Of a stretch of 64,000 bases of DNA, positions 1-21,630 are shown piece after piece. Source of the stretch: Clavelina lepadiformis (taxonomy: Eukaryota; Chordata; Ascidiacea; Aplousobranchia; Clavelinidae). Location of the stretch: positions 1,240,001-1,304,000 of the forward strand of contig NC_135244.1 of the NCBI RefSeq assembly GCF_947623445.1, given 5' to 3'. A program made the translations under genes and the position numbers. The notes under the pieces are model-generated. The model was not told the origin of the DNA. It saw nothing but the letters and a program-made list of their open reading frames with translations, and did not search any database. Position 1 is the first letter of the stretch. Each line of letters starts with the position of its first letter.

Positions 1-654
1 ACCACAATTACAACATTCTTCAGGTGGTTGGTCGGTTCCGTTTTCGTCATCAGGGACTTCATCACAATTACAACATTCTTCAGGTGGTTGGTCACTCCCG
101 ATTTCGTCATCAAGGACTTCACCACAATTACAACATTCTTCAGGTGGTTGGTCGGTCCCGATTTCGTTCTCAGGGACGTCACCACAATTACAACATTCTT
201 CAGGTGGTTGGTCGCTTCCGATTTCGTCATCAGAGACTTCACCACAATTACAACATTCTTCAGGTGGTTGGTCGGTTCCAATTTCGTCATCAGAGACGTC
301 ACCACAATTACAATATTCTTCAGGTGGTTGGTCGGTTCCGATTTCGTCATCAGAGACGTCACCACAATTACAACATTCTTCAGGTGGTTGGTCGGTTCCG
401 ATTTCGTCATCAGGGACTTCACCACAATTACAACATTCTTCAGGTGGTTGGTCGGTTCCAATTTCGTCATCATAGACTTCACCACAATTACAATATTCTT
501 CAGGTGGTTGGTCACTCCCGATTTCGTCCTCAGGGACGTCACCACAATTACAACATTCTTCCGGTGGTTGGTCGGTTCCGATTTCGTCATCAGGGACTTC
601 ACCACAATTACAACGTTCTTCAGGTGGTTTGTCGCTTCCGCCATATTCAGCCAT
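1..654 (+). repeat. 60-bp minisatellite of unit A (11 tandem copies)
   Basis: Eleven head-to-tail copies of a 60-bp unit with only a few differences each; the array runs off the left window edge. The unit is related to the coding minisatellite of unit D: in the frame starting at base 2 it reads HSSGGWSVPISSSETS followed by PQLQ, against D's HSSGSTSLPVSALATS followed by PRGQ. So this is probably the remains of unit A's large repeat exon. That frame contains one in-frame TAG, so unit A may no longer be translated in the ancestral frame. Because the unit is a multiple of three, other frames stay open on both strands. Right of the array the sequence passes straight into a segment like D's exon 8 (QATIINK against QATVSK), so the exons equivalent to D4-D7 are missing. 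Confidence 0.9.
1..654 (-). CDS. Antisense ORF across the unit A minisatellite, acidic Cys-rich repeats; real gene uncertain
   Basis: On the minus strand an ATG at 654-652, with an in-frame TGA shortly upstream, opens a frame that reads through all 11 repeats and off the window edge. The protein starts MAEYGGSDKPPEERCNCG. It then repeats a 20-residue acidic unit whose constant parts are EIG(T/S)DQPPEE and CNCG. Differences between copies are mostly conservative in this frame (Glu/Asp, Ser/Thr, Cys/Tyr) and there is no stop. I do not recognise a family. The same strand of the unit D array reads EPDECCPRGEVANADTGSD. Openness on this strand could simply follow from a stop-free 60-bp unit, so expression evidence is needed before calling it a gene. 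Confidence 0.25.
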   Translation of the reverse strand, partial: MAEYGGSDKPPEERCNCGEVPDDEIGTDQPPEECCNCGDVPEDEIGSDQPPEEYCNCGEVYDDEIGTDQPPEECCNCGEVPDDEIGTDQPPEECCNCGDVSDDEIGTDQPPEEYCNCGDVSDDEIGTDQPPEECCNCGEVSDDEIGSDQPPEECCNCGDVPENEIGTDQPPEECCNCGEVLDDEIGSDQPPEECCNCDEVPDDENGTDQPPEECCNCG

Positions 655-775
655 AGACCGCAACAATTTTGGTCAAGCAACAATCATTAACAAATTCCGA
701 ATATATTGGTTTCTCAAAAACTATTTTAATATTTTTATAATAAATCACCTCATATTAACACGTTCGTTTTTTTAG

Positions 776-1245
776 CACCAAAACGAAAAACAACCGGGGA
801 CGAAATGAGAACTGAACTCGATCGTGAACAATCAGAAATGCCCCAAAGTGGATTTAGTCCTAACCCGGCTCTTTCCAAACGAAGAAAACAGTAAATTGCA
901 ATCTTACCTTCGTGGTGTAATAATAATCGACATAAATTAAAAGTCAAGATGAACGAAAACGCCACAAACCCAGACGCGACGATTCAGAATAAGGTCAATA
1001 TGCTTGGTCCAGCTCTTCGGCGTTACCATGACCATGACCATGACCATGACCATGACCATGACCATGACCATGACCATGACCATGACCATGACCATGACCA
1101 TGACCATGACCATGACACTGAGATTCACTCGCAGACGGAGATCGTGATCAACCATACTGCGCCAACCACTGTGGGCTGTAGTAAAACTGATGACGTAAGC
1201 AATGTCGTTCGCCTTCCTCAAAAAGACCGCGATTCGCGAAATTAA
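776..1245 (+). pseudogene. Unit A homeobox exon and C-terminal tail, homeodomain truncated
   Basis: After a TTTTTTTAG acceptor, phase 1 reading gives APKRKTTGDEMRTELDREQS, then NPALSKRRKQ and TAA (892-894). It aligns with the intact homeodomains of units B and C up to helix 2. The TAA replaces the Glu codon of B and C at exactly the site where unit D also has TAA, and the 119-base coding part has the same length as D's. Beyond the stop, recognition-helix remnants persist (WCNNNRHKLK), as does the family tail (TEIVINHTAPTTVG, TDDVSNVVR). The tail contains a (His-Asp)15 run from a CATGAC hexamer. I see no upstream donor that keeps the homeodomain frame, so I call this a degenerate copy. A truncated functional protein is the alternative. 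Confidence 0.6.
1027..1116 (+). repeat. (CATGAC)15 hexanucleotide microsatellite
   Basis: Fifteen perfect copies of CATGAC occupy the place where units B and C encode a short HEHD segment. In the tail frame this gives (His-Asp)15. A hexamer keeps the frame, so length changes would be tolerated if the tail is translated. Confidence 0.95.
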
Positions 1246-2560
1246 CATAAGATGCCGTACTCTCAAGAAACGTCTAAAAATGGGTCCTTCTTAAACTGTG
1301 TTTCTATAACCGTTTGTGTTTGCCTGTATGTTATTTAAATTGAGAAAACTTTTCAGATTTTATGGCCATTTTAGTGCTCACGTGAAATATTTTCATGTGT
1401 TTTACCACAAAATACAAACAATATTTTTAAATTTATTGTTCTTTAAGAAAGGATTTACAAGCGGTGCACACTGAAACGCTGCCGTAAACGAAAATTATAT
1501 TTGCATATGAACTTTATTTCAGAAATAACTTCAACTCAGTAACATTAAACAGAAGTATGGTCAATTAGCTACTGATTTAAAACCTGTTACAAGGCTGCAG
1601 ATTGTTTCACAGGGAGTTTGTCTTTCATTATTTAGCAAATGGTTTTTGAAAGCACTAAAATCATGTTGGACCCTGATACAATTGTTTGGGAGCATGGCTA
1701 CACTGCAGGTGTTTCAGTATGAGGCTCATTGTTGTTAGTTTTGTGCTTGGACATGCGTTCAGAAATACAAACGTGAGAATGCGTTTCCATTGTTGTATTT
1801 CTTTGTGTGCAACATCATCTAAGTTAGATTTCAAAGCAGGAAGGTTTTTGGTTGGCTTAGGTGTCCACTGCAGGGAAGTATCCAGCTACGTGTTGTTAAT
1901 TTTGCTTAAATTAAGATTATCTTATTCCAAAATTATACCTTTGCGGTTAGAGTCCTACGCAATATAATATTTGTTTATCAGAAATTTTCACTGTTGTGTT
2001 CATCACATACACTCGGATTATACGGCGTTGCAAAATTGTTTTATGCTAATTTCCAAAACTTTTATCTCATGTCTATACATCAGTATTGAACGAGAAAAAC
2101 TGTGGTTGCCATTAAGCGCTGAATAGTTAGAGTAGTTCTGGAGATTACAATTACAAGTATTCTTTACAAATATGATTTACAAATTACAATGTCCAAATTA
2201 AGTGAATCATTTTGCCAAGATATTAATATCCTGAAGTTATAAACTTTCTTGGACATCTTAAAGTAACAATCGCCTTAGATTATATAAAATTTCATGCAAA
2301 TATGTCAAGCTTTTATTTATAAGTCTTGTATAGCAATCATGAATTAATCATGATTCATGTTCTGGTCAGTTGAATAAAACTTTACAATTGCATTAATATT
2401 TGAATAATACTTTTAAACTTTACACATTTCATATAACGATAAGTTACTAAATCAAAATATCAAGTTACTAATAATTCACATTTTAACCATCCAAGTTACA
2501 ATTGAAGATACGTTTCTGATCAAAACACAACAATGCAAAGAATCTTGTCAAATTTAACCT
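1246..2560. other. Intergenic, 3' flank of unit A
   Basis: AT-rich and without a supported gene. The first half resembles the 3' flanks of units B (6,740-7,290) and C (12,480-13,170): the shared blocks include the Phe-rich stretch after the tail and a segment around a GCATATGAACTT motif. It is therefore part of the duplicated unit. A 93-codon ORF at 1686-1967 has no family features and is probably chance. Confidence 0.6.
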
Positions 2561-2984
2561 TCAGCCAATTTTATGATTTATGAGCAGTTTACAACATTTT
2601 GATGTTCGCTGGGAATCAATTTCATAAAAGAGAAATTATTTCCATCAGTTAAACGCCTAGCTCTGAATCTCGTTTATGATTTCAAGGTTGTAGCTTTGTA
2701 GCCTGTATGCAAATAGCGTGTCCTCGTAGGCCTAACCTGTACCTGTACTTGATATCTATCATGTAAGATGGGATTTATACAAACAAACTACCTCACCTCG
2801 AATTGATCTGAACCTTACCCATGCTGATGCTAAGCATATATATTATATAAAACAGCTCCTTGCTTGTTGTACTACTAGTTGTATTATTTGAGATATTCCA
2901 CAAATTATTGCTCACGTAGCGTTGAAAAAGCAGTATGAAAGATTTGCTTGTGTACATCTTAACTCAGTAGTTATCACAATCAAA

Positions 2985-3130
2985 CTGATGACGTCATTTC
3001 TTCTGACGCGCTTTTGTGTACTTATCGGCGAAAGGTGATTGGTTATAAAACACCTATTGGAGATTTTGTGATTTATTTCCAATCGTTTTTCTTTAAAGTG
3101 TGATTGGTTGCAAACCTATATAAAACGTCT
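2985..3130 (+). promoter_or_regulatory. Promoter module 1 (CRE, inverted CCAAT, TATA) upstream of unit B
   Basis: A palindromic CRE (TGACGTCA, 2989-2996) is followed by a TCTGACGCG block and three inverted CCAAT boxes (ATTGG at 3038, 3056, 3103). A canonical TATATAAAA lies at 3117-3125, placing transcription start near 3150. The same order recurs at 8,151-8,287 and 14,445-14,582, each upstream of a homeobox unit. CRE suggests CREB/ATF input and CCAAT suggests NF-Y; both are inferred from motif identity only. Confidence 0.75.
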
Positions 3131-3547
3131 TTCTTGAAAATTTGTCCTTCAAATTGCTTCAATGCTTGGTTGTGTAAGCACTGCAACGCAAAGCTTTAGT
3201 ACAAACTGTTTCATTATTGTTGTAAGATGTGTGGCTTATTCCCCAACGGAACTTGAAATATGTTGTTGCTTTTGTTGAAGTACTTTTAGTAGTTTGAGTC
3301 ATCAATCCATCATAAATGGACTTAATTCGTCTTATTTATTGCTACATGTTGTTGGCAAGATGGTTTAACCTGTGCTTTGTTTACAGCGTGGCTTAACGTT
3401 CATTACCTACAGCGGCAATAGATTTTGTCTCTTGTTCTGCCTGAAAATTGGACGGTTTTTTGCATTATTTGTTTTTGAAAGGCTTATTGGAGATATGCAT
3501 GTTGCCGGGAATTCTGTTTTAAGCCACGGTCGCTTTGTGTATCAAGA

Positions 3548-3811
3548 ATGAGCAAACTACAACTTGCCAAAATTCCTCGGTCGAAGTTCTGCTTCCAACA
3601 TTCATGCATTGCTTGTAGCCAGCGCCCAGCCAATCAAAGTAGCCTACCTCAACAACAGTCAACTATATACAGTATTTATACTGTCTGTCAACGATTCTAC
3701 GGCAGCTATCAAAAAAACTCTCAAGTTGGTTACGAGCAGCTTTTGAATGTTTATCTTTGCAGCCTGGGACAGTTTGTCTGTAGCCCCCAACATGTCTTCC
3801 GTGCAATCTGA
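3548..3811 (+). other. Leader ORF downstream of promoter 1, MSKLQLAK-type
   Basis: About 420 bases after the TATA box a reading frame starts MSKLQLAKIPRSKFCFQ. The equivalent place behind promoters 2 and 3 has a 57-base ORF with the same start (MSKLQLAETLRSNFCFQ and MSKLQLAKILRTNFCFQ). Here the frame stays open for 87 codons instead of 18. The shared part may be an upstream ORF in the 5' leader or a first coding exon joined to downstream exons. No splice donor is obvious, so its role is open. Confidence 0.4.
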
Positions 3812-4609
3812 AAACTCCAACTTATGTATTTTAACTCGTGTTACTGTTGGTATAAAACCTATTGCTTTCTTGAGATCTTGAAAAGTGAAAAATATTCCAA
3901 GTGTATACACCTAACCTACCACTGTTTCTAAGTGTAGTGATAAGATCCAACGATATAGCGCTGCTAATTGTTCGGTGGCTTCAGCTTCTCAGCATCGGAG
4001 AATTGTTCGCTTCATTGTGATTGATACATTACTTAAGCATTTCCCTTTCCGTGACAAGGCAACAATCCATTCAGATTTGTCGGTACTCCTGATATTCGGC
4101 ATTTTCATGACGTATGTTTTGGTACTTTCGAACATTTTGTGTTCCTTATGTGAACTTTTGTCAACGATTTTTGCCTTTTCACTTCCACCGTTACATCGTA
4201 CCATGTAGAATAACTTTGGAATACCATTAGTTCTAACGGTTATTTCAGGTCAAACTATCAAACTCAGTTATTTAATATAGGCTCGAACTTTTGAACAACA
4301 AATATATTTTTACCCTCTTCCTACATTGCCCGGTAGAGAAGGAGACAACAAATGTAAAGCTTTCTGGGAAAATGTTGGTCAGCCATCATTTAACCATTAG
4401 CCTAATTCTTATTAATGTTCCAGATTTAATGTTTATTTTGAATAAATTGACTCAATGATTTCATATTTCATGCACGCATCACACTGAATATCAAGGGCTA
4501 CATTTATAACGTGTGTTATATGCTGACTTGTCTGTTTGACAACTGTTAAAATGGGTAAGTTTGGGATGGTATAAGCCTAATTTATTGCACACCATATTCG
4601 TTTTGTAAA
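3812..4609. other. 5' region of unit B without a supported exon
   Basis: Leader or intron sequence between promoter 1 and the first supported coding exon of unit B. Short ORFs on both strands at 3,975-4,208 overlap each other and show no family resemblance. The first half is shared with the corresponding part of units C and D; the second half differs. Confidence 0.5.
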
Positions 4610-6738
4610 ATGTATCAGCCTAGCCAAGTCTCATCTGAATATATTTACAGTGGAAAGATAAGCGGCAACGACGATATTTTATTGTTTTTATCAGAGGAAA
4701 CAAGAAACGAAGCAAGCGGAGAAAACAAATTGTTTGAAGACAAAGAAACTCCCACAATCGGTCCCAGCGACCATGCTTCGTCAAGTTCGTTATTTATATC
4801 ACCAGCTGCACCGGAACTTCTACAACAACCTCACTCTATACGAGCGTCACCAACAATCAACTGGTCCAGTAGCGAAACTGCAACTGTAAGTGAATGCAGC
4901 TCTAGCAGTGTAAGTGGAAGCTTAAATTAAATTTCTTACCAGCGACGGGATAGAAAACCAACAGCCACGATTTCTGCAGAAAGAAGCGGACATTCCAGTG
5001 AAGCTACGGCCAGAAGCTTCCCAATGGGTAAATGTAATGTAACAAATAATCCAACAGAAATATTGTTGAAATTTACTAATTTTTTGTATGGTAGACCGGA
5101 AAAAAACTCTAAAATAAATTGTGCTTTTAAGATCCCCAGGGAGTGGAGAGTACAATCGAACCAAGCGACCGAGCTTCAAGTTCTGCACCGGTTCCTTGGT
5201 CAGACTCTACATTGCCTCCATATTACGAATTGATGACGTCACCACTGCAAAATGTGGGTAGCGACGTAACATACTTTGAAGAAATCGACGGTGACGGCAG
5301 AGTTTCGAAACACAATCCTTACTTGCCTCCAAATCAATTCCCATATATAACACCAGCAACAGAGAACGCAAGTTTCAATCAATCTGTGGTTAGCGAATTT
5401 ATTCTGGATACCATTGTTTTAAGTTTTAACACACACATTATATAGTAAGCTAAACATTTCGCAAGAAAACACGAAGTTTAATTTTGGTAACATCATCTTA
5501 ATCAATGGTTCAACCCAAGCCCAAAACATTTTTTCAAACATGACGTCGACTATCAATATCTGTTTGACTGAAAGCAATGTCGTGAGTAGGCGTGTAACCT
5601 TATAGCTGCCCAAACAGAAGTTTCAGCTATATTTCTTATTTGAGCCAAACCCACAAATCAACGGCGACATTGGCCGCAAACAAAGGGAATTTTTTTGTAT
5701 CTGCAGTCAGTTTGTTAGCGCAGTTGAAATCCACAGTATAATTGTAATTTTTTTAGGAGGTCATTTCGCCCTTTAGTGAAGGTCAAACATCAACTCTGAC
5801 GGCAGCCACAAACAGCGCATGTTCGGGTCAAGCCACGGTCACCAACACCACGCCTGGTATTGTTGTTAGACAGAAATCATTTGGGACAAACTCAAAATTA
5901 GATTCAAGTGACAGAAAAACATCACAAATCCCAGCAGTGATGTTTTTGACGATTCCGAATAAAGTCAACAAGCTTCGACCGAATCCTCGGTCTTAGCGAT
6001 TTCACCACAACTAGAACATTCGACAGGTTTTCTATTGGTTCCAAATTCGGCATCAGCGACTTCACCTCAAATAAACATTTGTCCGGTTCTTGGTCGGTTC
6101 CAATTTCTCTGGAATGTTTTACTTGTGGTGAAGTTACTGAGGCCGTCACTTATTAGAACATCATTCCACCTCTTGGTGTAGGTCAAACATCAGCAAGGAA
6201 CAGCACAAGTTGTGGTCAAGCAACGATCACTAAAAATGCCGAGTATTTTTGGTTTCTCAAAATATTTTAACATTTTTATAACAAATCAACTCATAATAAC
6301 ACGTTCGTTTTTTCAGCAAAAAGGAGAAAACAAGTTTGGAGAAAATCGAGAGCTCAGTTAGAAATCCTTCGGAAAGAACTTAAGCTCAACCCGGCTCTTT
6401 CTAAACAAAGAAAAGCGGAAATTGCACTCAAGACCGAACTCCCCGAAAAAACAGTACAAACGTGGTTTAATACTAATCGACATAAAATGAAAGTCAAGAT
6501 GAATGAAAACACAAGAAATCCCAGCAACCAACAGGAAGTTTTTCACAAGTCGGGTCAACAGGCTTCGTCTAGCTCTTCGGTGTTACCATCGACATCTCAT
6601 GAACACGACACCGAGGTTTCTCCGCAGGCGGAGATCGTGATAAACTACAGTCCGCCAGCTAGTGGGAGTTGTAGTAACACTGATGACGTAAGCAATATCG
6701 TACGGTTTCAGCAAGAAAACAGCCATGCGTCAAATTAA
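4610..6738 (+). CDS. Unit B: orphan homeodomain protein with Ser/Pro-rich N-terminus
   Basis: Model exons: 4610-4885 (ATG start uncertain; family homology begins at 4695), 4943-5027, 5132-5388, 5450-5581, 5757-5856, 6317-6738. From 4695 the joined length is in frame to TAA at 6736-6738. The first part is low-complexity and rich in Ser, Thr and Pro (DRASSSAPVPW, LPPNQFPYITPATEN). The last exon starts AKRRKQVWRKSRAQLEILRK and carries a 60-residue homeodomain with NPALSKQRKAEIA in helices 1-2 and VQTWFNTNRHKMK in helix 3. Position 51, almost always Asn, is Thr (WFNTNR), so DNA binding may be altered. An 85-residue tail follows (PSTSHEHDTEVSPQAEIV, TDDVSNIVRFQ). It is probably a nuclear protein; target and partners are unknown. 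The family is not assignable to a standard homeobox class by eye. A decayed extra copy of exon 5 at 6,155-6,244 has no usable in-frame donor and appears to be skipped. Confidence 0.65.
5929..6160 (+). repeat. Decayed traces of the 60-bp minisatellite in unit B intron
   Basis: Two to three diverged copies of the 60-bp unit (GATTTCACCACAACTAGAAC, GCGACTTCACCTCAAATAAA) lie between exon 5 and the homeobox exon. The same block is at 11,630-11,855 in unit C. This shows that the minisatellite predates the unit duplications and expanded only in units A and D. Confidence 0.7.
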
Positions 6739-8150
6739 CATATATTGCCGTACCACCATAAAACGTTAAAGGCAACACCAATGCATGAATGGTTTTTGCT
6801 TAAACTGTTTTTATATACGTTTGATTTTAATAATTATAGCCTATATGTTACTTAAATTGAAACGTTTTCAGATTTTTTTATCAATGTTTGTGCTCATGCG
6901 AAATGTTTTAATGTGTTTCACCTCAAAATACAAACAACATTTTTATATGTATTGTTCTTTAAAAAAGTATTTACAAGCGCTACATATCGAATTGCTGCTG
7001 AAAACGAAAAACACATTTGCAAATGAACTTCATTGCGAAAATAATTTCAACTCCGTAAAAATTAAAGACCTGGCAAGTGGTTATACTATTTCAATATTAT
7101 GTATTTCAATCTGATGTTCATTGTTTTTGGTATTGTGCTTGGACTTGCGTTCGCAAATCTCAGAAAATGCAGAATCTCTAATTAATCTTTTAATCTTAAG
7201 TAATAATCTTGATCTTCATCTTTATGTGTTCGCATATTTCCCAGGATCTTAGTTTATCAGCAAAATTCACTGATGTTTTCGGATTAATTAATGTTTTGGT
7301 TTAAGATATGAATTTATATCTAACAAGTACAAAGCCACCTGATGATAATACATGCAACTTCCTAACATATCAGGACAAAAAATAAAGGCAATTTTTGACA
7401 TAGATATATATTGACATAATTCGTATAAACATAAAGATTGATTGCGTGCATATGCACTAGTTATCGTCATTCCCCAGTTGCATTTAACATAATAAAGATG
7501 TTATATCTGAAAAAAATTTAAAAACAAATTAATAGAAATGAGGAAAAGGTAAAAAGTATGCAAAAATTCGGGAAGGATCACAAAAATCGCAAAACATAAA
7601 ATTCTATTTAACAATGCACGCAGACAACAAGCTTGGTAACATGGGCTCGAGTAGTGAGGAATCATTTCCAAGTTTAAATCGTGAAAAAGTTTCCTCAGAC
7701 TAATGACAAATATTCCAGCATCATACCAACATTTGTAGTTACTTGTGATTGATATTCTTAGTTTCATCAACTTGTTTAAGAATGCAAACAAACTTGTCAA
7801 ATATATCTATCAGCCAATATTATGACTTATAAACATTTTACAACATTTAGATGTCTGCAGGGAATCAGTTTCATAAATAACAATTTTTTCCGAAAGTTAA
7901 AAGCTTAGCTCTGAATCTCGTTTATGGCTTTAAGGTTGTAGCTCTCCAGCACAGTAGGTCGATTTTTACACGAACGTCACGCATGCTGATTCTATACATA
8001 CAGTTCATACAAAACAGTTCCTTGCTTGTTGTACTTTTTGTTGTTTTATTTGAGATGTTCCAACATTTATTGCTCACGTAGCGTTGAAAAGGCATTAGGA
8101 AAGATTTGCTGCTGTACACCTTAACTCAGTAGTAATCACTATCATACTGA
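6739..8150. other. 3' flank of unit B and spacer
   Basis: No supported gene. 6,740-7,290 matches the 3' flank of unit C closely. 7,440-8,150 matches 13,735-14,444 almost base for base and includes an old SINE-like block. ORFs of 60-109 codons here are on both strands, low complexity, and lack family features. Confidence 0.6.
7501..7715 (+). repeat. Degenerate SINE-tail-like repeat, copy 1
   Basis: An A-rich lead is followed by a block (CATGGGCTCGAGTAGTGAGG ... TTTCCTCAGAC) that resembles the 3' module of the tRNA-derived SINE at 24,942-25,205. The tRNA-like head is missing. The copy at 13,795-14,012 is a by-product of the unit duplication. Confidence 0.5.
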
Positions 8151-8290
8151 TGACGTCAGTTTTTCTGACGCGGTTTTATCTACGTACCGGAGCAATGTGA
8201 TTGGTTATAAATCACCTATTGGAGATTTTGTGATTTATTTCTAACTGTGTTTCTTTATAATGTGATTGGTTGCAAAGCTATATAAAAGGA
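8148..8290 (+). promoter_or_regulatory. Promoter module 2 upstream of unit C
   Basis: CRE TGACGTCA at 8151-8158, a TCTGACGCG block, GATTGGTTATAAA, CTATTGGAG, TGATTGGTTGC, and TATATAAAA at 8279-8287. Order and spacing match modules 1 and 3; expected start of transcription is near 8,310. Confidence 0.75.
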
Positions 8291-8648
8291 CTTTCGTGAA
8301 AAGTCCTCGCTCATTTTGCTGCAATGCTTCGTGGTGTAAGCACTGCAACGCAATGCTTTAGTACAAACTGTTTCTTCATTGTTATAAGATGTGTGGCTTA
8401 CTCCCCAACGGAACTTGAAATATGTTGTTGCTCTTGGTAAATATGGTAAAGTACTTTTAGTATTTTGAGTGATCAATTCATCACAAAGGGACGTAATTTG
8501 TCTACTTTATTGCTACATGTTGCTTCAGTTAAGTAAGTTATGTGGCTTAATCCTCAACGGAACTTGCAATATGTTGTTATTGGCCTATTGAAGGTATGCA
8601 AGTTGCTGGGAATTCTGCTTCAAGCCACGAGAGTTTTGCGAGAGATGA

Positions 8649-8705
8649 ATGAGCAAATTACAACTTGCCGAAACTCTGAGGTCAAATTTCTGCTTTCAAC
8701 GTTGA
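8649..8705 (+). other. Conserved 18-codon leader ORF, copy 2
   Basis: ATG to TGA, MSKLQLAETLRSNFCFQR. It lies about 360 bases downstream of the TATA box, at the same relative place as copies 1 and 3. The amino acids shared by all three copies are MSKLQLA, R and FCFQ. Confidence 0.45.
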
Positions 8706-10032: not shown

Positions 10033-12214
10033 ATGCTTCTCCAAGTTTTATTATTGGTGTCGTCAGCTGCAAAGATGATGCCGACCAGTAACGTGTCTTC
10101 CAATGAAATAATTTCTGTAAGTGCGTATAATTTTTTGCAGGTCAAGGAAAAATTTAACTATATTTCTTACCAGGGACGAGGTCAAAGACAAACAACGACG
10201 ATGTCTGCAGAAAGAAGTGGAACTACGGCAAACAATTACCAACCAGGTATTAGGCTTAACATGAAAAAAGTAATTTAACTGTATTATTACTATAAAAAAA
10301 TACGTGTTATATTATAATAAATATCCACTCAATTTTTGCTATTTTTATTATTATTTTATGTATATTATTTTTGCTACACTTTACTGTTTTCATCAGAGGA
10401 AACAAAAACCAAAGCAAGCGGAGAAAGCAAATTGTCTGAAGACAGAGAAATTCCCTCAATCTATCCCCGCGACCGTATGTGGTCAAGTACTCTATTGGCA
10501 TCACCATCTGCACAGGTAGTTCTACAACAATCTCACTCTATACGTCACCAAAAACCAACGTGTCCTGTAGCGAAACAACAGCTGTAAGTGTAGCAGGTTA
10601 AGTAGAAGCTTAAACTATATTTGTTATCAGGAAGAGGATGGAAATCCAAAAGCCACGATCTCTGCAGAAAGAACTGGACATCCCAGTGAAGCTACAGCTG
10701 GAAGTTTCCCGATGGGTAAATGTGATGTAACAAGTAATTTAACAGAAATATTGTTGAAATTTACTAATTTTTTGTATGGTAGACCGGAAAAAAACTCCAA
10801 AATAAATTGTGTTCTTAAGATCCTCAGACAGTTGAGAGTACAATCGAACCCAGCGACCGAACTTCAAGTTTTGTACCGGTACCGTGGCCAGACCCTTCAT
10901 TGGCTCCATTATACGAATTGATGACGTCACCACTGCAAAATGTGGGTTTCAATGTAACATACTTTGAAGAAATCGATGGTGACGGCAGAGTTTCGAATCA
11001 CAATCCTTACTTGCCTCCAAATCAATTCCCATATATAACACCAGCAACAGAGAGCGCAAGTTTCAATCAAGCTGTGGTTAGCGAATTTATCATATGGTTA
11101 TCTGGTTATCATAGTTTTAACACACATATGATAAAGTAAGCTAAACATTTCGCAAGAAAACACGAAGTTTATCTTTTGGTAACATCATCTTAATTAATGG
11201 TTCAACCCAAGCCCAAAACATTTTTTCAAACCTGACGTCGACTATCAATATCTGTTCCACTGAAAGAAATGTCGTGAGTAGGCGTGTAACCTCATAGCTG
11301 CCCGAGCAGAAGTTTCAGCTATATTTCTTATTTGAGCCTAAACCACAGATCAATGGCGACATTGGCCGCAAACAAGGAGAATTGTTTTGCACCTGCAGTC
11401 AGTTTGTTAGCGCAGTTGAAGTCCACAGTATAATTCTAATTTTTTTTTAGGAGGTAATTCCGCCCTTTAGTGAAGGTCAAACATCAACTCTGACGTCAGC
11501 CACAAACAGTGCATTTTCGGATGAAGCCACGGTCACCAACAACAACCCTGGTAAGCTGTTTGACAGAGATCCTTTAGGACAATCTCAAAATTAGATTCAA
11601 GTAACAGAAAAACGTCACAAATCCCAGAAGTGAAAAGGGATGTTTTTGACGATTCCGAACAAAGCCAACAGGCTTGACCGAATCGTCGATCTTAGCGATT
11701 TCACCGCAACTAGAACATTCGACAGGTTTTTTATTGGTTCCAAATTCGGCATCAGCGACTTCACCTCAAATAAACATTTATCCGGTTCTTGGTCGGTATT
11801 AACTTCTCTGAAATGTTTTACTTGTGGTGAAGTTACTGATGCCGTCACTTATTAGAGCGTCATTCCACCGCTTGGTGTAGCTCAAACATCAGCAAGGAAG
11901 AGCGCAAGCTGTGGTCACGCAACGATAACTAAAAATGCCGATTACTTTTGGTTTCTCAAAATATTTTAACATTTTTATAATAAATCAACTCATAATAACA
12001 CGTTCGTTTTTTAGCAAAAAAGAGAAAACAAGTTTGGAGAAAACCGAAAACTAAATTCACTCCTGAACAGTTAGCAACACTCCAAAAAGAATTTAATCTC
12101 AACCCGGCTCTTTCTAAACAAAGAAAAAAGGAAATTGCACTCAGGACCAAGCTCACCGAAGAAATAGTACAAACTTGGTTTGGTAATAATCGAAAGAAAA
12201 TGAAAAAGATGTGA
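10033..12214 (+). CDS. Unit C: orphan homeodomain protein, intact homeodomain, 237 aa
   Basis: Exons 10033-10116, 10174-10246, 10820-11076, 11451-11550, 12015-12214; total 714 bases, all junctions GT/AG and in phase. ATG at 10033 has A at -3 (GCGACCATG). The N-terminus MLLQVLLLVSSAAK is hydrophobic and shared with unit D, but in unit B the same bases are read in another frame. The middle is Ser/Thr/Pro-rich (TVESTIEPSDRTSSF, LPPNQFPYITPATES). The C-terminal homeodomain runs from KKRKQVWRKPKTKFTPEQ through NPALSKQRKKEIALRTK to IVQTWFGNNRKKMKKM and TGA, with Trp48, Phe49, Asn51 and Arg53 all present. Unit B's tail is lost through a one-base difference but survives out of frame (SVLPSTSHEHDTEVSPQ). 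Exons matching B1 and B2 (10397-10583, 10631-10715) lie in the second intron but carry a 4-base deletion and do not fit the frame. Probably a nuclear DNA-binding protein; class unassigned. Confidence 0.7.
11630..11855 (+). repeat. Decayed traces of the 60-bp minisatellite in unit C intron
   Basis: Closely matches the block at 5,929-6,160 of unit B, including the ACTAGAACATTCGACAGG stretch. It is intronic in the unit C model. Confidence 0.65.
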
Positions 12215-14444
12215 ATGAAAAGGCAAGAAATCCCTGCAACAAACCGGAAGTTTTTGAAGAGTGGGGTCAACAGGCTTCGTCTATCTCTTCGGTGTTACCA
12301 TCGACATCTCATGAACACGACACTGAGGTTTCTCCGCAGGCGGAGATCGTGACCAACTTCAGTCCGCCAGCTAGTGGTAGCAACACTTGTAGTAACTTGT
12401 GATTTGTTATAACACTGATGACGTAAGCAATATCGTACGGTTTCAGCAAGAAAACAGCCATGCGTCAAGTTACCTTCCGTACCACCATAAAACGTTGTCT
12501 AAAGGCAACACCAATGCATGAATGGGTTTTGCTTAAACTGTTTTTATATACGTTTGATTTTAATAATTATAGCCTATATGTTGCTTAAATTGAGACGTTT
12601 TCAGATTTTTTTATCAATGTTTGTGCTAATGCTAAATGTGTTAATGTGTTTTACCTGAAAATACAAACAACATTTTTATATGTATTGTTCTTTAAGAAAG
12701 TATTTACAAGCGCTACATATCGAATTGCTGCTGTAAACGAAAAATATATTTGCATATGAACTTTATTGCGAAAATAATTTCAACTCTGTAACAACTAAAC
12801 GGTAGGAAGCACAAGTAGCTTACGATCAGTTAGCTATTGACGTAAAGCTGTTATAGGCTGCGATTTGTTTCACTGAGTTTGCCTTTCGTTGCCTAAGCAA
12901 TGGTTTTGAAGAAACTAAAAACAAATTGGACCTTTATACAATTAGTTGAAGACCTGGCAATTGGTTACACTGCAGGTACTTCTATCTGATGTTCATTGTT
13001 GTTGATATTGTGTTGGACTTGCGTTCGAAAATCTTAGAAAATGCAGAATCTCTAATAATCTTGATCTTCATCTTTAAGTGTTCGCATATTTTCCAGGATC
13101 TTTGTTTATCAGCAAAATCGCTGATGTTTTCTGATTAATTAATATTTTGGTTTAATATAGGAAATTTTATCTAAGAAATACAAAGCCACCTGATGATAAT
13201 ACTTGCAACTTCCTAACATATCAAGGCAACAATTAAGGCAATGTTTCCAACCACATCAACATTTCTAACCCAACCAGTTATTTAATCTGTATTCAACCCA
13301 TTGCTTTGTCTGATCGTCTTGATGTTTGTTTAAGTTTTTGTGTATTGTTAACTGGAGCATTTTACAGTTTCTTGGTAAAGTTGATTTGTGTAGACTTGGC
13401 CGCTTGTCATTGAACGTTGAACATTTTACCATAAATCGCTTTTAAGGAAAATGAATCCCGAAAGAAATTGCCACTTCTGCTCATGTTGAAATGAAGTTTC
13501 CTATAATATAATTTCTATTTGATATTCTGGTGTATATCACAAGATGAACAAAGAAGTGTTGCAAGTGTAACAAAGAAATCAGATTACTGCTTAACCCGAA
13601 CTTACAATAAAGTTTGTTTATACAACCTGACAAAGACTTGATAAGTCGAAGACAATTTAAATTTGTTCTTTTGATCATCATGTAAGTTGGTGTAATATAT
13701 ATATTGACATAATTCGTATAAACATAAAGATTGATTGCGTGCATATGCACTAGTTATCATCATTCCCCAGTTGCATTTAACATAATAAAGATGTTATATC
13801 TGAAAAAAATTTAAAAACAAATTAATAGAAATGTGGTAAAGGTAAAAAGTATGCAAAAATTCGGGAAGGATCACAAAAGTCGCAAAACATAAAATTCTAT
13901 TTAACAATGCACGCAGACAACAAGCTTGGTAACATGGGCTCGAGTAGTGAGGAATCATTTTCAAGTTTAAATCGTGCAAAAGTTTCCTCAGATTGATGAC
14001 AAATATTCCAGCATCATACCAACATTTGAAGTTACTTGTGATTGATATTTTTAGTTTCATCAACTTGTTTAAGAATGCAAAAAAACTTGTCAAATCTAAC
14101 CATCAGCCAATATTATGACCTATAAACATTTTACAACATTTGGATGACCGCTGGGTATTACTTTCATAAATAACAATTTTGTTCCGGAAGTTAAAAGCCT
14201 AGCTCTGAATCTCGTTTATGGCTTTAAGGTTGTAGCTCTCCAGCACAATAGCTCGATTTTTACACGAACGTCACGCATGCTGATTCTATACATACAGTTC
14301 ATACAAAACAGTTCCTTGCTTGTTGTACTTTTTGTTGTTTTATTTGAGATGTTCCAACAATTATTGCTCACGTAGCGTTGAAAAGGCATTAGGAAAGATT
14401 TGCTGCTGTACATCTTAACTCAGTAGTAATCACTATCATACTGA
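12215..14444. other. 3' flank of unit C and spacer
   Basis: Starts with the out-of-frame remnant of the family tail (12,215-12,402), then the shared 3' flank to about 13,170. 13,260-13,690 is not seen in the other units and has no supported gene. From 13,735 it repeats the 7,440-8,150 block. Confidence 0.55.
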
Positions 14445-14585
14445 TGACGTCAGTTTTTCTGACGCGGTTTTATCTACGTATCGGCGTAATTTGATTGGCT
14501 ATAAGTCAGGTATTGGAGAATTTGTGATTTATTTCTAACTGTGTTTCTTTGCAATGTGATTGGTTGCCAAATTATATAAAAAGTC
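14441..14585 (+). promoter_or_regulatory. Promoter module 3 upstream of unit D
   Basis: CRE TGACGTCA at 14445-14452, a TCTGACGCG block, GATTGGCTATAAG, TATTGGAG, GATTGGTTGCC, and TATATAAAAA at 14573-14582. Same layout as modules 1 and 2. Confidence 0.75.
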
Positions 14586-14793
14586 TTTCGTGAAAAATGG
14601 TCGTTCATTTTGCTGCAATGCTTCTTTGTGTAAGCACTGCATAGTGATGCTTTGCTACAAAGTGTTTCATCATTGTTGTAAGTTTTGTGGCTTAATCCTC
14701 AACGGAACGTAGAATATGTTGTTGTTGGCCTATTGGAGGTATGCAAGTTGCTGGGAATTCTGCTTCAAGCCACGAGGGTTTTGCGTCTGAAGA

Positions 14794-14850
14794 ATGAGCA
14801 AACTACAGCTTGCAAAAATTCTGAGGACGAATTTTTGCTTTCAACATTGA
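14794..14850 (+). other. Conserved 18-codon leader ORF, copy 3
   Basis: ATG to TGA, MSKLQLAKILRTNFCFQH. Same length and position relative to the promoter as copy 2. Confidence 0.45.
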
Positions 14851-16132
14851 TAACTTGGGCGTAGCCAGCACCCAGCTGGTCCAAGTAGCTTACCTCAACT
14901 AAATCAAACTATATATTGTATTTATATTGTCCTCCAATGATTCTACGACAGTGTTCATAGACACTTTCTTGTTAGCTATGAGTATTCTGAGTGTTAATCT
15001 TTGCAGCAGGTGGTATTATGCCTGTCACTCTTCAACATGTCTTCTGTACAGTCCAAGTGTAATTGAAAACTACAATTTACTTTTTGAGACTTTGAAATGT
15101 GCGAAATATTCCAAATGTAGCACGTTGCAGACAGTGGTGATTAGATCCAACGATTTATTTCTACTGTGTGTTCTGTGACTGAGCTGTGAAATAGGGAGTT
15201 GTGCACTTAATTTTTCTTACCACGACGAGGCAACAATCCATAAAGACGTTTTGGTGCTTTAAGCACTCGGCATGTTTTTCAGTTGCTCAGCCCGCCTGTG
15301 AGGTTGAACAACCACTGCTGTAGACATCGGTTTCAAGCTTGAGGTTTAGAAGCGGTTCCATTGCAACTGTTTCGCTTTCCTAGCTAGCTTCGTTGGTTCT
15401 TCAGTTCAGCACCGCTATAATAACCCGTGAAAAGTATTTCCCGGATATAAACAAGATGTAGAAATATTGTGGCTCCACAAATGAAATTCCTGTTTTTTGT
15501 CCTGTGTATATCTATTCACTTACCCTCCTACGTACCATGTAGATTAAATTTGCAATACCATTAAAACTTGCAGTATCTCCATGCCATAACAGTTCCAGTT
15601 TTTCTAACGATTGTTTTAGCAGACCAGATTGTCGAGCTCGATATGTTTTGGCTTAGACTTGAACTTTTGCGGATCTCGCGCTGTGTGTTGAAGAAATTTT
15701 TATTTTATCCTTTTTGTGTAGTTAGCAAACTGAAGTATCATTTTGACTGTTATTGTTACAGATTTAATGCTTGTTTGTTTTTACTTAACGCTTTCATTTT
15801 TACTGGACTCGTCACGTTGAACACTAAAAGAAAATAGATAAAACTTCTTCGCTGAAACTTTTTCAATAGTGTCTGTTTTACTTTAAAATTACGTAAGTTT
15901 AATAGCTAATGGTAATGGTATAGGCTTAATTTGGATAGCTACGGTAAAACTGCTCGTTGCATTCATTAGTATATTTATGTATATCATCAATACCATTTTA
16001 ATCCAGAATATCATCTGAATGCATGAACTGTAACAACATAAGCGTTAATCAAGATATATTTTATTTTTGCCGGGCAGAAAGACAACATAAACCATCTGAA
16101 GACAGAAATCTCCTCCATCGATCCCATCGACC
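14851..16132. other. 5' region of unit D
   Basis: No supported coding exon. It matches the 5' region of unit C over most of its length. Short ORFs at 14,927-15,178 and 15,568-15,837 are not conserved between the two copies as proteins. Confidence 0.5.
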
Positions 16133-19100
16133 ATGCTTCTTCAAGTTTTATTATTGGTTTCATCAGCTGCACCGGTATTTCTACAACCATCTCACAACTC
16201 AAAGATTACGCCGACCAGCAACGCGTCCTCCAATGAAATAATTTCTGTGAGTGCGTATAATTTTTTGCATGTCGAGGTAAAATTTAACTATATTTCTTAC
16301 CAGGGACGAGGTCAAAGACAAACAACGACGATGTCTGCAGAAAGAAGTGGAACTACGGTCAACAATTACCAACCAGGTATTAGGCTTAACATAAATAAGT
16401 GATTTAGCTGCATTATTACTATAAAAAATATGTATTATATTATTATAAATATCCACTTAATTTTTCATGTTTTGATTTAACAAGTGAAAGACGAGCAACT
16501 CCAAAATAAATTGTGTTCTTCAGATACCCAGAGAGTTGAGGATACAACCACACCTGGCTACTACGCTTCAAGCGCGCCATCGCTTTCATCCCAGGCACAA
16601 CTTCCGTCAGACTCTCTATTGCCTCCAACTTACGCACGAGCCAACCAACTCCAAGTACAACATCCATTAGGTTTCTCTTCGGTGCCATTTTCGTCACCTG
16701 TGCTGGGGGCACCAGTGATTCTACAACAAGGACAGAATTTGTTGGGCTCTTTGTCTCTTCCATTTGGGGCACCAACGATTCTACCACAAGCTCAAATTTT
16801 GTGGGGTTCTCCGTTTGTTCCGTTTGGCCAAACAGCGAGTTTTCCACAACCTCAGATTTTCCCACGTCCTCCCTCGGTTCCATTTACGGAATCAGTGGGT
16901 CCACCACAAGCTCAACACTCGTCGGGTTCTTCGGTTCCATTTTCAGCATCAATGAATTTAACACAAGGACCATCGGTTCCGATTTCTGCGTCAGGGAATT
17001 CACCACAAGGACAGCAATCATCAGACTCTTCGTCGGTTCAATTTTCAGCATCTGCAAATTTACCTCATCAATATACGTCAGGTTCTTCGTCGGTACAATT
17101 TTCTGTATCAGCGACTTTACCTCAAGGACAAAGTTCGTCAGCCTTTTCGTCGGTTCAATTTTCGGCATCAGTGACTTTTCCACATGATCAACATCGGTCA
17201 GGTTCCATGTCGGGTCCAGTGTCGGCATCAGCGACTTCACCACGAGGACAACATTCGTCAGGTTCAATATCGCTCCCAGTGTCAACATTAGCGAGTTCGC
17301 CACGAGAACAACATTCGTCAGGTTCAACATCACTTCCAGTGCCGGCATTAGTGACTTCGTCACGAGGACAACAGTCGTCAGGTTCAATATCGCTTCCTGT
17401 GCCGGCATTAGCGACTTCGTCACGAGGACAACAGTCGTCAGGTTCAATATCGCTTCCAGTGCCGGCATTAGCGACTTCACCACGAGGACAACATTCGTCA
17501 GGTTCCACATCGCTCCCAGTGTCAACATTAGCGAGTTCACCACGAGGACAACATTCGTCAGGTTCAACATCACTTCCAGTGTCGGCATCAGCGACTTCGC
17601 CACGAGGACAACAGTCGTCAGGTTCAACATCGCTCCCAGTGTCGGCATTAGCGACTTCGCCACGAGGACAACAGTCGTCAGGTTCCACATCGGTTCCAGT
17701 GTCGGCATTGGTGACTTCGCCACGAGGACAACATTCGTCAAGTTCCACATCGCTTCCAGTTTCGGCATTGGTGTATTCGCCACGAGGACAACATTCGTCA
17801 AGTTCCACATCGGTTCCAGTTTCGGCATTGGTGTATTCGCCACGAGGACAACATTCGTCAGGTTCAACATCACTTCCAGTGCCGGCATTAGTGACTTCGT
17901 CACGAGGACAACAGTCGTCAGGTTCAATATCGCTTCCTGTGCCGGCATTAGCGACTTCGTCACGAGGACAACATTCGTCAGGTTCAATATCGCTTCCAGT
18001 GTCGGCATTAGCGACTTCGCCACGAGGACAACAGTCGTCAGGTTCAATATCGCTCCCAGTGTCGGCATTAGCGACTTCGCCACGAGGACAACATTCGTCA
18101 GGTTCAATATCGCTTCCAGTGTCGGCGTTAGCGACTTCGCCACGAGGACAACATTCGTCTGGTTCTTCTTCGGTACAGATTTCAACATCAGTATTGCCAC
18201 CACAACCACAAGGTTTGTTTAACAACGTCACTAACATTACTGTTACTGGCGGTGTGATCAGATATTTCCACCAAGATCTTTACTTGTTTCCAGATCAATC
18301 TCAAATTGGAATGCCGACTGAAATGTCAACAACAAAGAAGGCAAAGGTTGTTCGACCTTTGATTAACAAGTTCATTCTGGGTTCCATTGTTTTACCACAA
18401 ATACTATACAGCAAGCTGAGTTATTCTTATTGTAGAAGTCGAAAAAACACAAGCCACAAAAGCCATGCTCAATTGGTAACCAGAGAATCGAACACTCAGT
18501 CGAAACCAGCGCGCAATCTTCGTCAAGTTTATTGGTGGTACTTTCGTCTCCGCCTGTAATCTCACCAATACCTTATAATTTTTCTACTAACCTGACATCG
18601 ACTATCCGCTTACCCACTGAAAGAAACGTGAGTGATTGCGACCTTTATAGCGTCTTGTACAGAAGTTTCAGTATTTTTGTTATCAGAGTCGGCGCCAACT
18701 ATCAACGGCGACATTTACCACAGACAGCAGCGATATCGTCGAAACCACGTCAGGCATAATTCCACCTGGTAAAAACATTTTACGTTTATATTTTAATTAT
18801 TAAGCGATGTACTTAACAATATTGTTGTTAACAATGAAGTTACGTTATTTAGGTCGCCTGAGAGGGAGTAGCCCTATGGAACATAGGGACCGTGCTTCGT
18901 CACGTTTTCCGGAAATGCCTATGGTGGTAGAATGTCCAACGCTAGGTGTAGATGATGAGTCGCAAGATGCTCATGTTATTTATAGGTTGTTTGAAAACGA
19001 CGATGGTATGATGACGACAACGACAACGTCAGCAAATGACAGTGCAGGTATGGAAGGAGAAGTGGTCGCGATTGAAACACTCTTGGTGCTTGTATTATGT

Positions 19101-19683
19101 TAAAGCTTTAGAAACGGGTCTTTTTTCAGAAAGGAGTTCTCGATCTCGGCCAAGACGTTTATGTTTTTCCGAAAACCAGGGAGTTGGTTGTAGCGAGCAA
19201 CCTTCAAGTTTGTCGTTGGCGCCTTTGCAGACTACAGTCTATCTCAAACAATCTCGCAACTCTTTAGGGTTGTCATCTACTTGTGGTTTGCCCTCACCTG
19301 AAAGAAATGTCGTGAGTAATGCTGGAAACCAGGAAAAAAATTGGACTATAAATCCAATAAAATTATTTCTAACTACAATTCCTATTTGTTAGAACGTCTT
19401 TCCCATTCCGCATGTAGGTCAAACATCGACCGTGACGTTGGCCAGAAACAGCACAAGTTCAAGTCAAGCAACAGTCAGTAAACAAACGCCGGGTACTGTT
19501 GATTGATGGAAACATTTTTACATTTTTATGATTGTTCAACTCACAATCACACATTCATTTTTAGAAAAAAAGAAAAAACAGTCCAGGTGCAAGAGGAAAA
19601 CTCAAATTGCGTCTGACCAGTCAGAAATGTCCCAAAGAGAGTCTCAAAACGACCCGGTTCTTTCCAAACAAAGAAAAATATAA
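16133..19683 (+). CDS. Unit D: giant Ser/Pro-rich repeat protein with truncated homeodomain, about 959 aa
   Basis: Nine exons: 16133-16246, 16304-16376, 16524-18346, 18436-18627, 18687-18768, 18853-19047, 19130-19311, 19393-19492, 19565-19683. Total 2,880 bases, every junction GT/AG and in phase. The N-terminus (MLLQVLLLVSSAAP) and exon 2 match unit C. Exon 3 (1.8 kb) holds degenerate Gln/Pro/Ser repeats, then 16 regular 20-residue units of the type SSGSTSLPVSALATSPRGQH. Exons 6-7 look like a second copy of the exon 3 start plus exon 4: DRASS with Y..FE..DDG, and endings LPTERN against LPSPERNV. The last exon opens like the family homeodomain (EKKKKQSRCKRKTQ, then DPVLSKQRKI) but stops at TAA within helix 2, so helix 3 and DNA contact residues are lost. 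Beyond the stop the recognition helix is not recognisable, though tail traces (SSALPSTSY) persist. It could be a non-DNA-binding derivative or a decaying gene; the long in-phase model favours translation. Confidence 0.6.
17221..18180 (+). repeat. 60-bp coding minisatellite of unit D, 16 regular copies
   Basis: Sixteen consecutive 60-bp units, preceded by about five degenerate ones (16,921-17,220). Consensus product is a 20-residue Ser/Pro-rich unit. The 60-base units at 17,341 and 17,881 are identical and the following units differ by one base, showing a higher-order duplication 540 bp (nine units) apart. Variation between copies is mostly Leu/Val, Ser/Pro, Thr/Ile and His/Gln. The opposite strand is also open for 349 codons. 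Confidence 0.95.
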
Positions 19684-21630
19684 ATTGCGGAGAAAAACAA
19701 AGTTTGCGAAGACGAAGTAAATAAAATCAACAAAAGAAAAAAACGAACACAAAGTAAGAAGTCGGAATAAAGCCAACAGGCGTCGTCCACCTCTTCAGCG
19801 TTACCATCGACATCTTATGTCCAAGATTACCAGGTTCCTCAGCCGATGGAGATCGTGATAAATTGCACTGCGCCAACTACTGTGGGAGTTGTAGTAACAC
19901 TGATGACGTAAGCAATGTCGTACGCCTTCTGCAAGAAGACAGCGATGCACCAAATTAACATAAGATGCCGTACTTTCATGAACAGTTGTCCAAATGCAAC
20001 TACTATGCGTAAAAGGTTCTGTTTAAATTGTGTTTTTATGGCTGCTTCTTTCAAATTAATATATATGCGATTGAAATTGCAAAAAACTTTTGAGATTTTA
20101 TTGTATGGTGTTTTTAATCTTGTTCTTGTGAAATTTTTTGGTGTGTTTTACCGCAAAATACATGATATTTTAATATTTTTGTATCTTACTATAAGAACTT
20201 AAACATAAGCTACCCGCCGAATTGTCGCATCAAACGATAAAATATATCTCATTTCATGAAAGTTGCGTAAATGGAAACATGGCAATATAGACGAAGCGTG
20301 GCCGTTAGTTTATTTGTCTGTGACTGACTTGATAGTAATTTACGACCTAATCTGGATGAAACTTGTCTACAAATCTTGCAATTACACGCACCATGTGCCA
20401 GCTTTCAACAATGGTTGTTTATTTCATATTAAATAGTATTTCAGCTCATCTTGCCTTACAGCAAACCTTAAAATACTCCAGACCTAGCTTCTGGCTGATA
20501 TGTCACGGTAGTCGTGCTGTATTTTGCATGACTTAAGAACTTAAGAACTTGTAATTAGCGCAAAGATACTTTGGATTGTTTTGTCCTTGTAGAAACAATT
20601 TTAGTCTAGTTCAACATGTACTTTAACCAAGCTAACAGTGTTGTTGTTGATGCATTGGTTCATGCCACAATGAAACCTGCTTTTAGAGGCACTCAAAGAA
20701 ATACTCCTACCATCATTGATAATGTGCGTTGTCGTATCTAACGGGTTTATTTTATTTGGAAGTAAGCCTGATGCTTCAAATCGGACAAATATTAAGCAAG
20801 TGCTAAAAACATAGAACAGCGTTTTGGAAACATACAAAAGTAATACGTCACCAGACACCATTAATAAGTCCTTCAACATATTATCAGATCTGTACAAGAA
20901 TTCCGTAAAAGATGAGAATTTATTTGCAAATTAGCACAATGACACTCTTGCTGTTTCGACTCACTGAAATACAGTTTCTTATGTTGTAGCTACATCGAGA
21001 CATATACGGCTCTTTGCCTCCATAAATTTTCGAGAATTCTCATTGAAAACACGTTTAACTTCTGTTTTGTGTTAAGTCCATTATAGGAAAAAAATAACAT
21101 ATTTGCCTCGGTAAAATTTTACCTTGGCACGGCCTTTGTTCCGGTTATATTTGTTGTATGCTCTATTTTAAAAAGCAAGACCTATCATCTATTTTATTAA
21201 AAGCATCTCATCGGTCGCATCACAAGCATCGCGGTCGCCGATGAGCTGATTCAAGATTGTTTTTAGGCGTTGTACCACTTTCAGGATGATGTTGCGCTTT
21301 TGACAGTGACAAGAGTGGGATGTATTATTTCAGTGATTTTTCTAGCTCTTACCTTAGTCCTGCTGATTATACCTCGGTAAAATGACAAGATTTTGTTTAT
21401 CTTTGCCAGCAGTTAAGCGTTCAATTTACCTTAAATATGATCAAAATTAATTAAGTGATGAGATGGTGTTGGCATGTATTTAGTTAACATTTTGTATCCT
21501 TTAAGATTAGTTGCACTGTTTGCAATTCGTCGGTTATGATACCGATATACAGCAGTAACTTGTCATTCTCACTCCAGGCATAATCGCGCAAAACATCGTA
21601 TAAAGATTCTCATCATCGTTTGCTTTAACC
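19684..21630. other. 3' flank of unit D and gene-poor AT-rich DNA
   Basis: The family tail remnant (SSALPSTSY, QPMEIVINCTAPTT) extends to about 19,920 and the duplicated 3' flank to about 20,200. The rest has no supported gene. The ORF at 20,601-20,897 (-) has no recognisable features. Confidence 0.5.

Follow-up and report, generated by a model that had tools for sequence, protein, structure and literature searches.

To date, several types of divergent homeobox genes have been described, and lineage-specific homeobox arrays are already known. DUX, ZHX, HOMEZ and Mux are multi-homeodomain genes, HOPX is a single small gene not known to form a tandem family, and the asparagine at homeodomain position 51 (N51) is a near-invariant DNA contact of homeodomains. 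HOPX-type homeodomain proteins are among the closest known systems, as far as the accessible parts of two reports go (PMC6997107, PMC3876040). According to the accessible part of their description, the eutherian ETCHbox genes arose by lineage-specific tandem duplication of a single conserved homeobox gene, CRX, and are highly divergent; they undergo frequent gain and loss and form large tandem arrays (PMC8208926). We analyzed a stretch of 64,000 nucleotides on chromosome 5 of the aplousobranch ascidian Clavelina lepadiformis (C5:1240001-1304000, hereafter the window), which carries four homeobox units on its plus strand, designated A to D. Our main finding is that these units form the right-hand margin of a larger family, whose homeobox loci number about 45 and are gathered in two clusters of chromosome 5 (cluster A, 847-924 kb, and cluster B, 1200-1260 kb). 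We estimate at roughly 75% the probability of the whole picture drawn here, namely a tandem family that has the ParaHox gene Cdx as its ancestor and in which the core of the homeodomain would have been kept and its DNA readout mostly abandoned.

The family resembles Cdx in the homeodomain signature of its least diverged members, in a block of the C-terminal tail and in a phase-1 intron directly before the homeodomain. It differs from Cdx in its many tandem copies, most of which have lost N51, in minisatellite-coded stretches, in predicted double-homeodomain genes, and in N-terminal exons 2-4, which a genome search (E up to 0.1) matched only in cluster B. Its likeness to the ETCHbox genes lies in being a tandem array of divergent, putatively lineage-specific duplicates, but these genes belong to the PRD class and the Clavelina family to ANTP/ParaHox, and loss of N51 is not discussed in the accessible part of the ETCHbox report (PMC8208926). 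Like the proteins of the DUX, ZHX, HOMEZ and Mux genes, those predicted for part of cluster A contain several homeodomains; those genes, however, are of other classes, and in Clavelina each homeodomain has its own exon. No report of a Cdx-derived tandem family appeared among the titles and abstract beginnings searched, a coverage that mostly excludes subscription journals, and the accessible part of the Didemnum vexillum genome paper lists 48 homeobox coding sequences and reports no comparable expansion. Within the reach of these searches, an array that derives from Cdx and is mostly devoid of N51 is new, and would add an ANTP/ParaHox example to arrays such as that of the CRX-derived genes. 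Cdx is a widely conserved patterning gene. Some 45 loci that probably derive from it, with the core signature kept and N51 mostly shed, would form a natural mutational series, which lets one ask what a homeodomain is capable of once its DNA readout is no longer selected; the case also suggests a route by which a homeobox exon becomes a shuffling module.

All whole-genome searches covered the 209-Mb C. lepadiformis assembly. With the homeodomain profile PF00046 they gave at least 116 matches, of which C5:847-924 kb and 1200-1252 kb together contain at least 32 (a count resting on 150 scored of 192 candidates). Units B and C scored 39.1 and 62.8 bits in this search, for a cut-off of 22.9, while units A and D were detected only when the unit C protein served as query, each with an in-frame stop; their homeodomains are interrupted by stops or missing segments. 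A profile of our own, run over C5:845-935 kb and 1190-1304 kb, yielded 45 matches scoring 10 bits or more. Dropping a match of 15 residues at 1268189, joining those at 859007 and 859103 (the halves of one homeodomain) and adding units A and D gives the 45 loci of the family, 40 of which have an uninterrupted homeodomain; the broken ones are 858296, 859007, 1222813, A and D. When 22 of these 40 members were submitted to PF00046, all were matched at E up to 0.1. Members of six types, used as queries against the whole genome, matched outside both clusters only homeobox genes of our control list; C5:935-1190 kb, covered by whole-genome searches alone, gave no match. Cluster A contains, at C5:847-885 kb, seven tandem units spaced 4-7 kb apart, each with homeodomain (HD) matches in the order I, III, II; further right, at C5:886589, a tail match lacks a homeodomain. 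The preliminary description of the window had counted four copies of a rapidly evolving tandem family with uneven integrity: the number falls far short, whereas tandem arrangement, speed and uneven integrity are all supported.

The family very probably derives from Cdx, to judge from its least diverged members and from pooled profiles. When member 918000 was used as a whole-genome query, the best other match was Cdx on C1 (E 1.3e-12, 57%, 55.2 bits), in an alignment spanning residues 10-80 of 81 and thus reaching past the homeodomain, behind which both sequences read LKSTSE; the runners-up were a family neighbour (43.7 bits) and a Hox-like gene (36.1 bits). For member 906379, Cdx is the best match outside the family, with 37.8 bits against 27.3 for the next non-family gene. 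Human CDX2/CDX1 are the best single-homeodomain matches listed when the homeodomains of 918057 and 924147 are compared with the PDB; the one row above them, 6m3d, holds two Engrailed-type homeodomains in a single chain, and their two scores are summed. Moreover, a profile built from all 40 members placed Cdx first among 76 control homeodomain windows (73.1 versus 57.0 bits), and so did a cluster A profile deprived of its two closest members (66.3 versus 56.5 bits).

Two further features point the same way. A splice acceptor was detectable at most 48 nt upstream of 31 of the 40 family homeodomains (no call in the other nine); it is in phase 1 in 30 of these 31, and in 17 it shows the very offset of Cdx, 17 nt. 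This combination of offset and phase occurs at three distinct loci among 59 control windows, Cdx included. The second feature is the tail: Cdx ends with TSATNSVTSERAAVTNTTFGNEHVQ, and an example of family exon 5 ends with TSATNSTCSGQATVTNTTPG followed by gt; in the family the Cdx tail sits before the homeodomain and not behind it. Compared with the Cdx tail at the protein level, 8 of 12 exons 5 beat all 2000 shuffles both ways and four did not; at the DNA level, 48 of 66 nt are identical in unit B and 25 of 30 in unit C, and none of 1000 shuffles was equally good for any of the four exons tried. Used as a query against the whole genome, the Cdx tail returned only Cdx and one family exon 5, and the reverse search with unit B exon 5 returned eight family places, not Cdx. 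Homeodomain, intron offset and tail thus tie the family to the terminal exon of Cdx, which comprises the homeodomain and the C-terminal tail and is preceded by a phase-1 intron.

Several observations weigh against this descent. The profile of cluster B alone barely favours Cdx (56.0 versus 54.1 bits), and the Cdx tail match to family exon 5 has by itself an E of 1.35. Phase 1 is also that of 24 of 36 control acceptors, which makes intron phase alone weak, and we rejected it as decisive for a Cdx origin. In a tree of 58 columns only member 924320 joins Cdx (90/84), and a clade uniting the family and Cdx is neither rejected (p-value of the approximately unbiased test 0.29) nor supported. Finally, unit C finds its own best PDB matches in Engrailed, the window copies alone being too diverged for classing. 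That the tree leaves the family unplaced and that the window copies have no clear class speak for a true orphan homeobox class, independent of Cdx; such a class is nevertheless very improbable, and largely refuted by the agreement with Cdx in homeodomain, tail and intron offset. It is because of this agreement that the term 'orphan', and the view that the homeodomain fits no standard class, are not upheld: relatives, intron position and exon 5 trace the family to Caudal/Cdx. The opposite outcome that had been considered, a known class with orthologues across chordates, holds in its first part, the class being Cdx, but not in its second, since the members are derived extra copies and not orthologues.

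Within the homeodomain, the residues that contact DNA and those of the hydrophobic core have fared very differently. N51 was retained by 8 of the 40 members, versus 31 of the 35 control windows that reach position 51 (Fisher 1.7e-9; one control locus is counted twice, and the four controls without it are locus L092 and three CERS-like rows). R5 is found in 15 of 40 members versus 53 of 56 control windows and R53 in 23 of 40 versus 29 of 30, the control columns omitting here two CERS-like rows, L090 and L093. The residues found at 51 in the family include D, E, I, F, P and Y. In the core, on the other hand, L16 and W48 are each present in 39 of 40 members and F49 in all 40, and position 20 is F or Y in 39, the exception being unit B. 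For reference, R5 occurs in 99 of 106 Drosophila homeodomains, and L16, F20, W48 and F49 are the core signature (PMC4901127). Residues identical to Cdx amount in the family to 23% of contact positions and 55% of core positions; in a set of eight further ANTP-like homeodomains the corresponding shares are 61% and 74%. The median net charge is 4.5 in the family versus 9 in Cdx. With core residues retained and contacts replaced, the core appears to be maintained, and DNA readout to be largely abandoned or rewired.

L16, W48 and F49 are found jointly in 38 of the 40 members, at 19-52% identity to Cdx, while a neutral simulation starting from the Cdx homeobox leaves 0.07-0.1% of copies open with these three residues at 22-30% identity. 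This bears on the possibility that most copies are dying, that is, that the clusters are functionless relics whose frames are open since the duplications are recent. Five of 45 loci are indeed broken, three of the four window units are damaged, and the homeodomain of unit B is short of five residues before helix 1 that are present in unit C. The ratios of nonsynonymous to synonymous differences (pooled pN/pS 0.86 for HD-I exons, 0.82 for HD-III, 0.75 for HD-II and 0.99 for three beta copies including unit C) go in the same direction, as they would also fit relaxed constraint. We nonetheless consider dying copies improbable, in view of the retention of the core triad and of the recurrence of splice sites and of the start exon.

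A maintained core has its own difficulties. The same neutral simulation gives 0.9% at a mean identity of 43%, still far below the observed retention, and 5.6% at 64%, and the retention figure is to be read as an order of magnitude and not as 40 draws, because of shared ancestry and of the choice of the uninterrupted 40 of 45 loci. The defect of unit B and the pN/pS values also count on this side. So does the single-sequence structure prediction for the unit C homeodomain (predicted local distance difference test score 81, predicted template modelling score 0.38), in which there are two helices, 2 and 3 being fused: this model gives no confirmation of the three-helix fold.

If the core is maintained, the replaced contacts could also mean that the family consists of diversifying DNA-binding transcription factors, which would have gained new specificities by altering residues, 50, 51 and 54 among them, whether in an arms race or in an early-embryo role like that of ETCHbox or DUX. 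The number of states per column is higher at contact positions than at the remaining surface positions in HD-I (p 0.021) and in HD-II (p 0.039); no such excess was seen in HD-III (p 0.83). Across seven units, HD-II homeoboxes differ at 21.2% of sites and the introns next to them at about 10%; without unit u4, summed from the same table, the figures are 15.9% and 10.6%. Yet synonymous divergence in HD-II exceeds intron divergence in most pairs, so that the contrast can be due to gene conversion or to introns that were homogenised; for this reason, and since u4 drives much of it, we rejected the comparison of exons and introns as proof of positive selection. The 8 members that retain N51 would suit diversifying readers as well. 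The residues D, E, I, F, P and Y at position 51 and the drop in net charge, however, make ordinary DNA readout unlikely, and we regard this explanation as possible but rather unlikely.

In cluster B, the Cdx-tail sequence belongs to the exon that precedes the homeobox exon, and ends in a phase-1 donor without counterpart in Cdx: GGAAATG in Cdx corresponds in unit B to a G followed, across the splice junction, by GTATTG, and NTTFG in Cdx corresponds to NTTPG followed by gt in the copies. In the aligned units of cluster A, the HD-III and HD-II exons are bordered by phase-1 splice signals; five of seven units have a small Ser-rich exon between the two, and in six of seven an ATG exon, recognised by a pattern of our own, opens the predicted HD-III/HD-II gene. 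Each unit of cluster A is predicted to contain an HD-I gene and a double-homeodomain (III-II) gene. A triple-homeodomain gene was considered and rejected: the exon between HD-I and HD-III begins with ATG, and joining the HD-I donor to the acceptor of this exon would introduce an in-frame stop.

We propose that the terminal exon of Cdx was duplicated in tandem, that the gain of a donor would then have made the tail sequence an exon spliceable to the next homeobox exon, and that the family may have spread by tandem and segmental duplication. The outcome would be genes with one or two homeodomains and with long Ser/Pro-rich regions that minisatellites encode in part. Their products would most likely be nuclear regulators, in which most homeodomains would serve as protein-binding or competitor modules and not as sequence-specific readers of the TAAT type; the minority that retains N51 (8 of 40) would still bind DNA. 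With N51 mostly gone and net charge lowered, the majority would most likely act via protein contacts or as competitors. We advance this mechanism of non-canonical readers tentatively, and give it slightly less than an even chance. More speculative, and in our view doubtful, is an extension in which the homeodomain would be a folded scaffold with a DNA-reading face free to diversify, spread by homeobox and tail exons, whose products would recognise proteins or each other instead of DNA, in conflict, self-recognition or a germline role. Comparison with the ETCHbox genes, which are expressed in the embryo according to the accessible part of their description (PMC8208926), suggests the early embryo as the first place to look for expression.

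The features of the four window units are collected in Table 1. Their homeobox exons begin exactly where the preliminary description had put them, and Ser/Thr/Pro-rich N-terminal exons and a tail are indeed common to the units, in unit D only partly; a promoter-like block composed of TGACGTCA, ATTGG boxes and TATATAAAA is common to units B, C and D. The repeat at the left end of the window is not simply the N-terminus of unit A. It is the end of a minisatellite (C5:1235612-1240640, about 84 copies of 60 nt, 91-92% matching) that begins behind the neighbouring homeodomain at C5:1235344, 5 kb left of the window. The latter lies in an open frame of 1589 aa, which translates most of the array as TSPQLQHSSGGWSVPISSSG, slips off the repeat reading and stops 37 bases short of the window; within the window, the repeat reading stays open until a TAG at 473-475. 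Another repeat, a perfect ACCATG hexamer present 15.3 times at 1025-1116, makes a His-Asp run (DHDHDH) of the relic tail of unit A.

Unit B is the sole unit of the window that closes a full predicted frame, of 352 aa in six exons with five GT-AG introns. Searched against Pfam at E up to 1, this protein gave homeodomain matches (36.2 bits for PF00046, cut-off 22.9) and a marginal ApoC-I match and nothing else, hence no Caudal N-terminal activation domain. Its short first exon has similar starts, ATGG followed by gtaag, at three relatives (C5:1233854, 1221232 and 1224765). Exons 2-5 or the tail of unit B have counterparts in unit C, incompletely in unit D, and also to the left of the window, where five genes contain them (C5:1203-1204, 1219-1221, 1224, 1227-1229 and 1234-1235 kb); for exons 3 and 4, no counterpart was found at the C5:1224 kb gene. 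In unit C the frame breaks in exon 2, directly behind the homeodomain and again in the tail, and the shared tail, at 12214-12470, lies out of frame. The 20-aa repeats of the long unit D frame are encoded by a 60-nt array at about 17107-18165, and a Pfam search of this frame at E up to 1 found nothing.

Table 1. Features of units A to D, in window coordinates
Feature	Position	Strand	Remarks
End of 60-nt minisatellite	1..640	+	10.7 copies in the window, 73.1 further left; main reading TSPQLQHSSGGWSVPISSSG
Unit A, broken homeobox exon	776..1245	+	TAA within homeodomain; recognition helix damaged
Unit B, promoter-like block	2989..3125	+	TGACGTCA at 2989-2996, ATTGG boxes at 3035 and 3100, TATATAAAA at 3117-3125
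Unit B, coding exon 1	4551..4554	+	ATGG followed by gtaagt; ends in phase 1
Unit B, exon 2	4695..4885	+	Ser/Thr/Pro-rich
Unit B, exon 3	4943..5027	+	
Unit B, exon 4	5132..5388	+	
Unit B, exon 5	5757..5856	+	Cdx C-terminal tail homologue, ATNSACSGQATVTNTTPG followed by gt
Unit B, homeobox exon	6317..6738	+	T51, L20; Ser-rich tail; stop
Unit C, promoter-like block	8151..8287	+	cAMP response element (CRE), two ATTGG boxes, TATA at 8279-8287
Unit C, exon 2	10396..10589	+	Frame break
Unit C, exon 3	10637..10714	+	
Unit C, exon 4	10819..11079	+	
Unit C, exon 5	11451..11550	+	Cdx-tail homologue
Unit C, homeobox exon	12015..12214	+	Complete homeodomain, Asn51 retained (WFGNNRKK), then stop
Unit D, promoter-like block	14445..14581	+	CRE, two ATTGG boxes, TATA at 14573-14581
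Unit D, open frame of 692 aa	16481..18559	+	Start exon 4-like by eye, then 20-aa repeats
Unit D, exon 5	19417..19491	+	Cdx-tail homologue
Unit D, broken homeobox exon and tail relic	19565..19958	+	

Homeodomain-like sequences without N51 also exist elsewhere in the genome. Matches with WFRRRRN or WFRKRRN, where these positions were read, lie at C4:8682963-8702428 and C3:3839539-3839682, in frames of about 360-380 aa, some of them in a small cluster on both strands; we take them to be of the CERS type. They share with the Clavelina family a homeodomain-like match without N51, but differ in their frames and are unrelated to it. The control locus L092 (C4:21530134-21530459), outside the clusters, is a homeodomain-like match that reads WFRV and from which N51 is absent.

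An assembly artefact or contamination, in favour of which we found nothing, is scarcely conceivable as the origin of the array. The sequence comes from a PacBio HiFi chromosome assembly with a reported quality value of 67.4, according to the accessible part of its description (PMC10884593); most copies differ from each other far beyond sequencing error, and animal-type genes follow within the window. One of these is a neuregulin-like open frame of 374 aa in a single exon (43654-44778) with NRG2_N and I-set domains, an EGF-like match below the cut-off and a membrane span recognised by eye. The others are ordinary neighbours, with matches to an ankyrin/SOCS-box protein (46505-47380), Mff (48005-48394), Yip1 (50982-51887) and a diacylglycerol kinase accessory domain (57718-58305).

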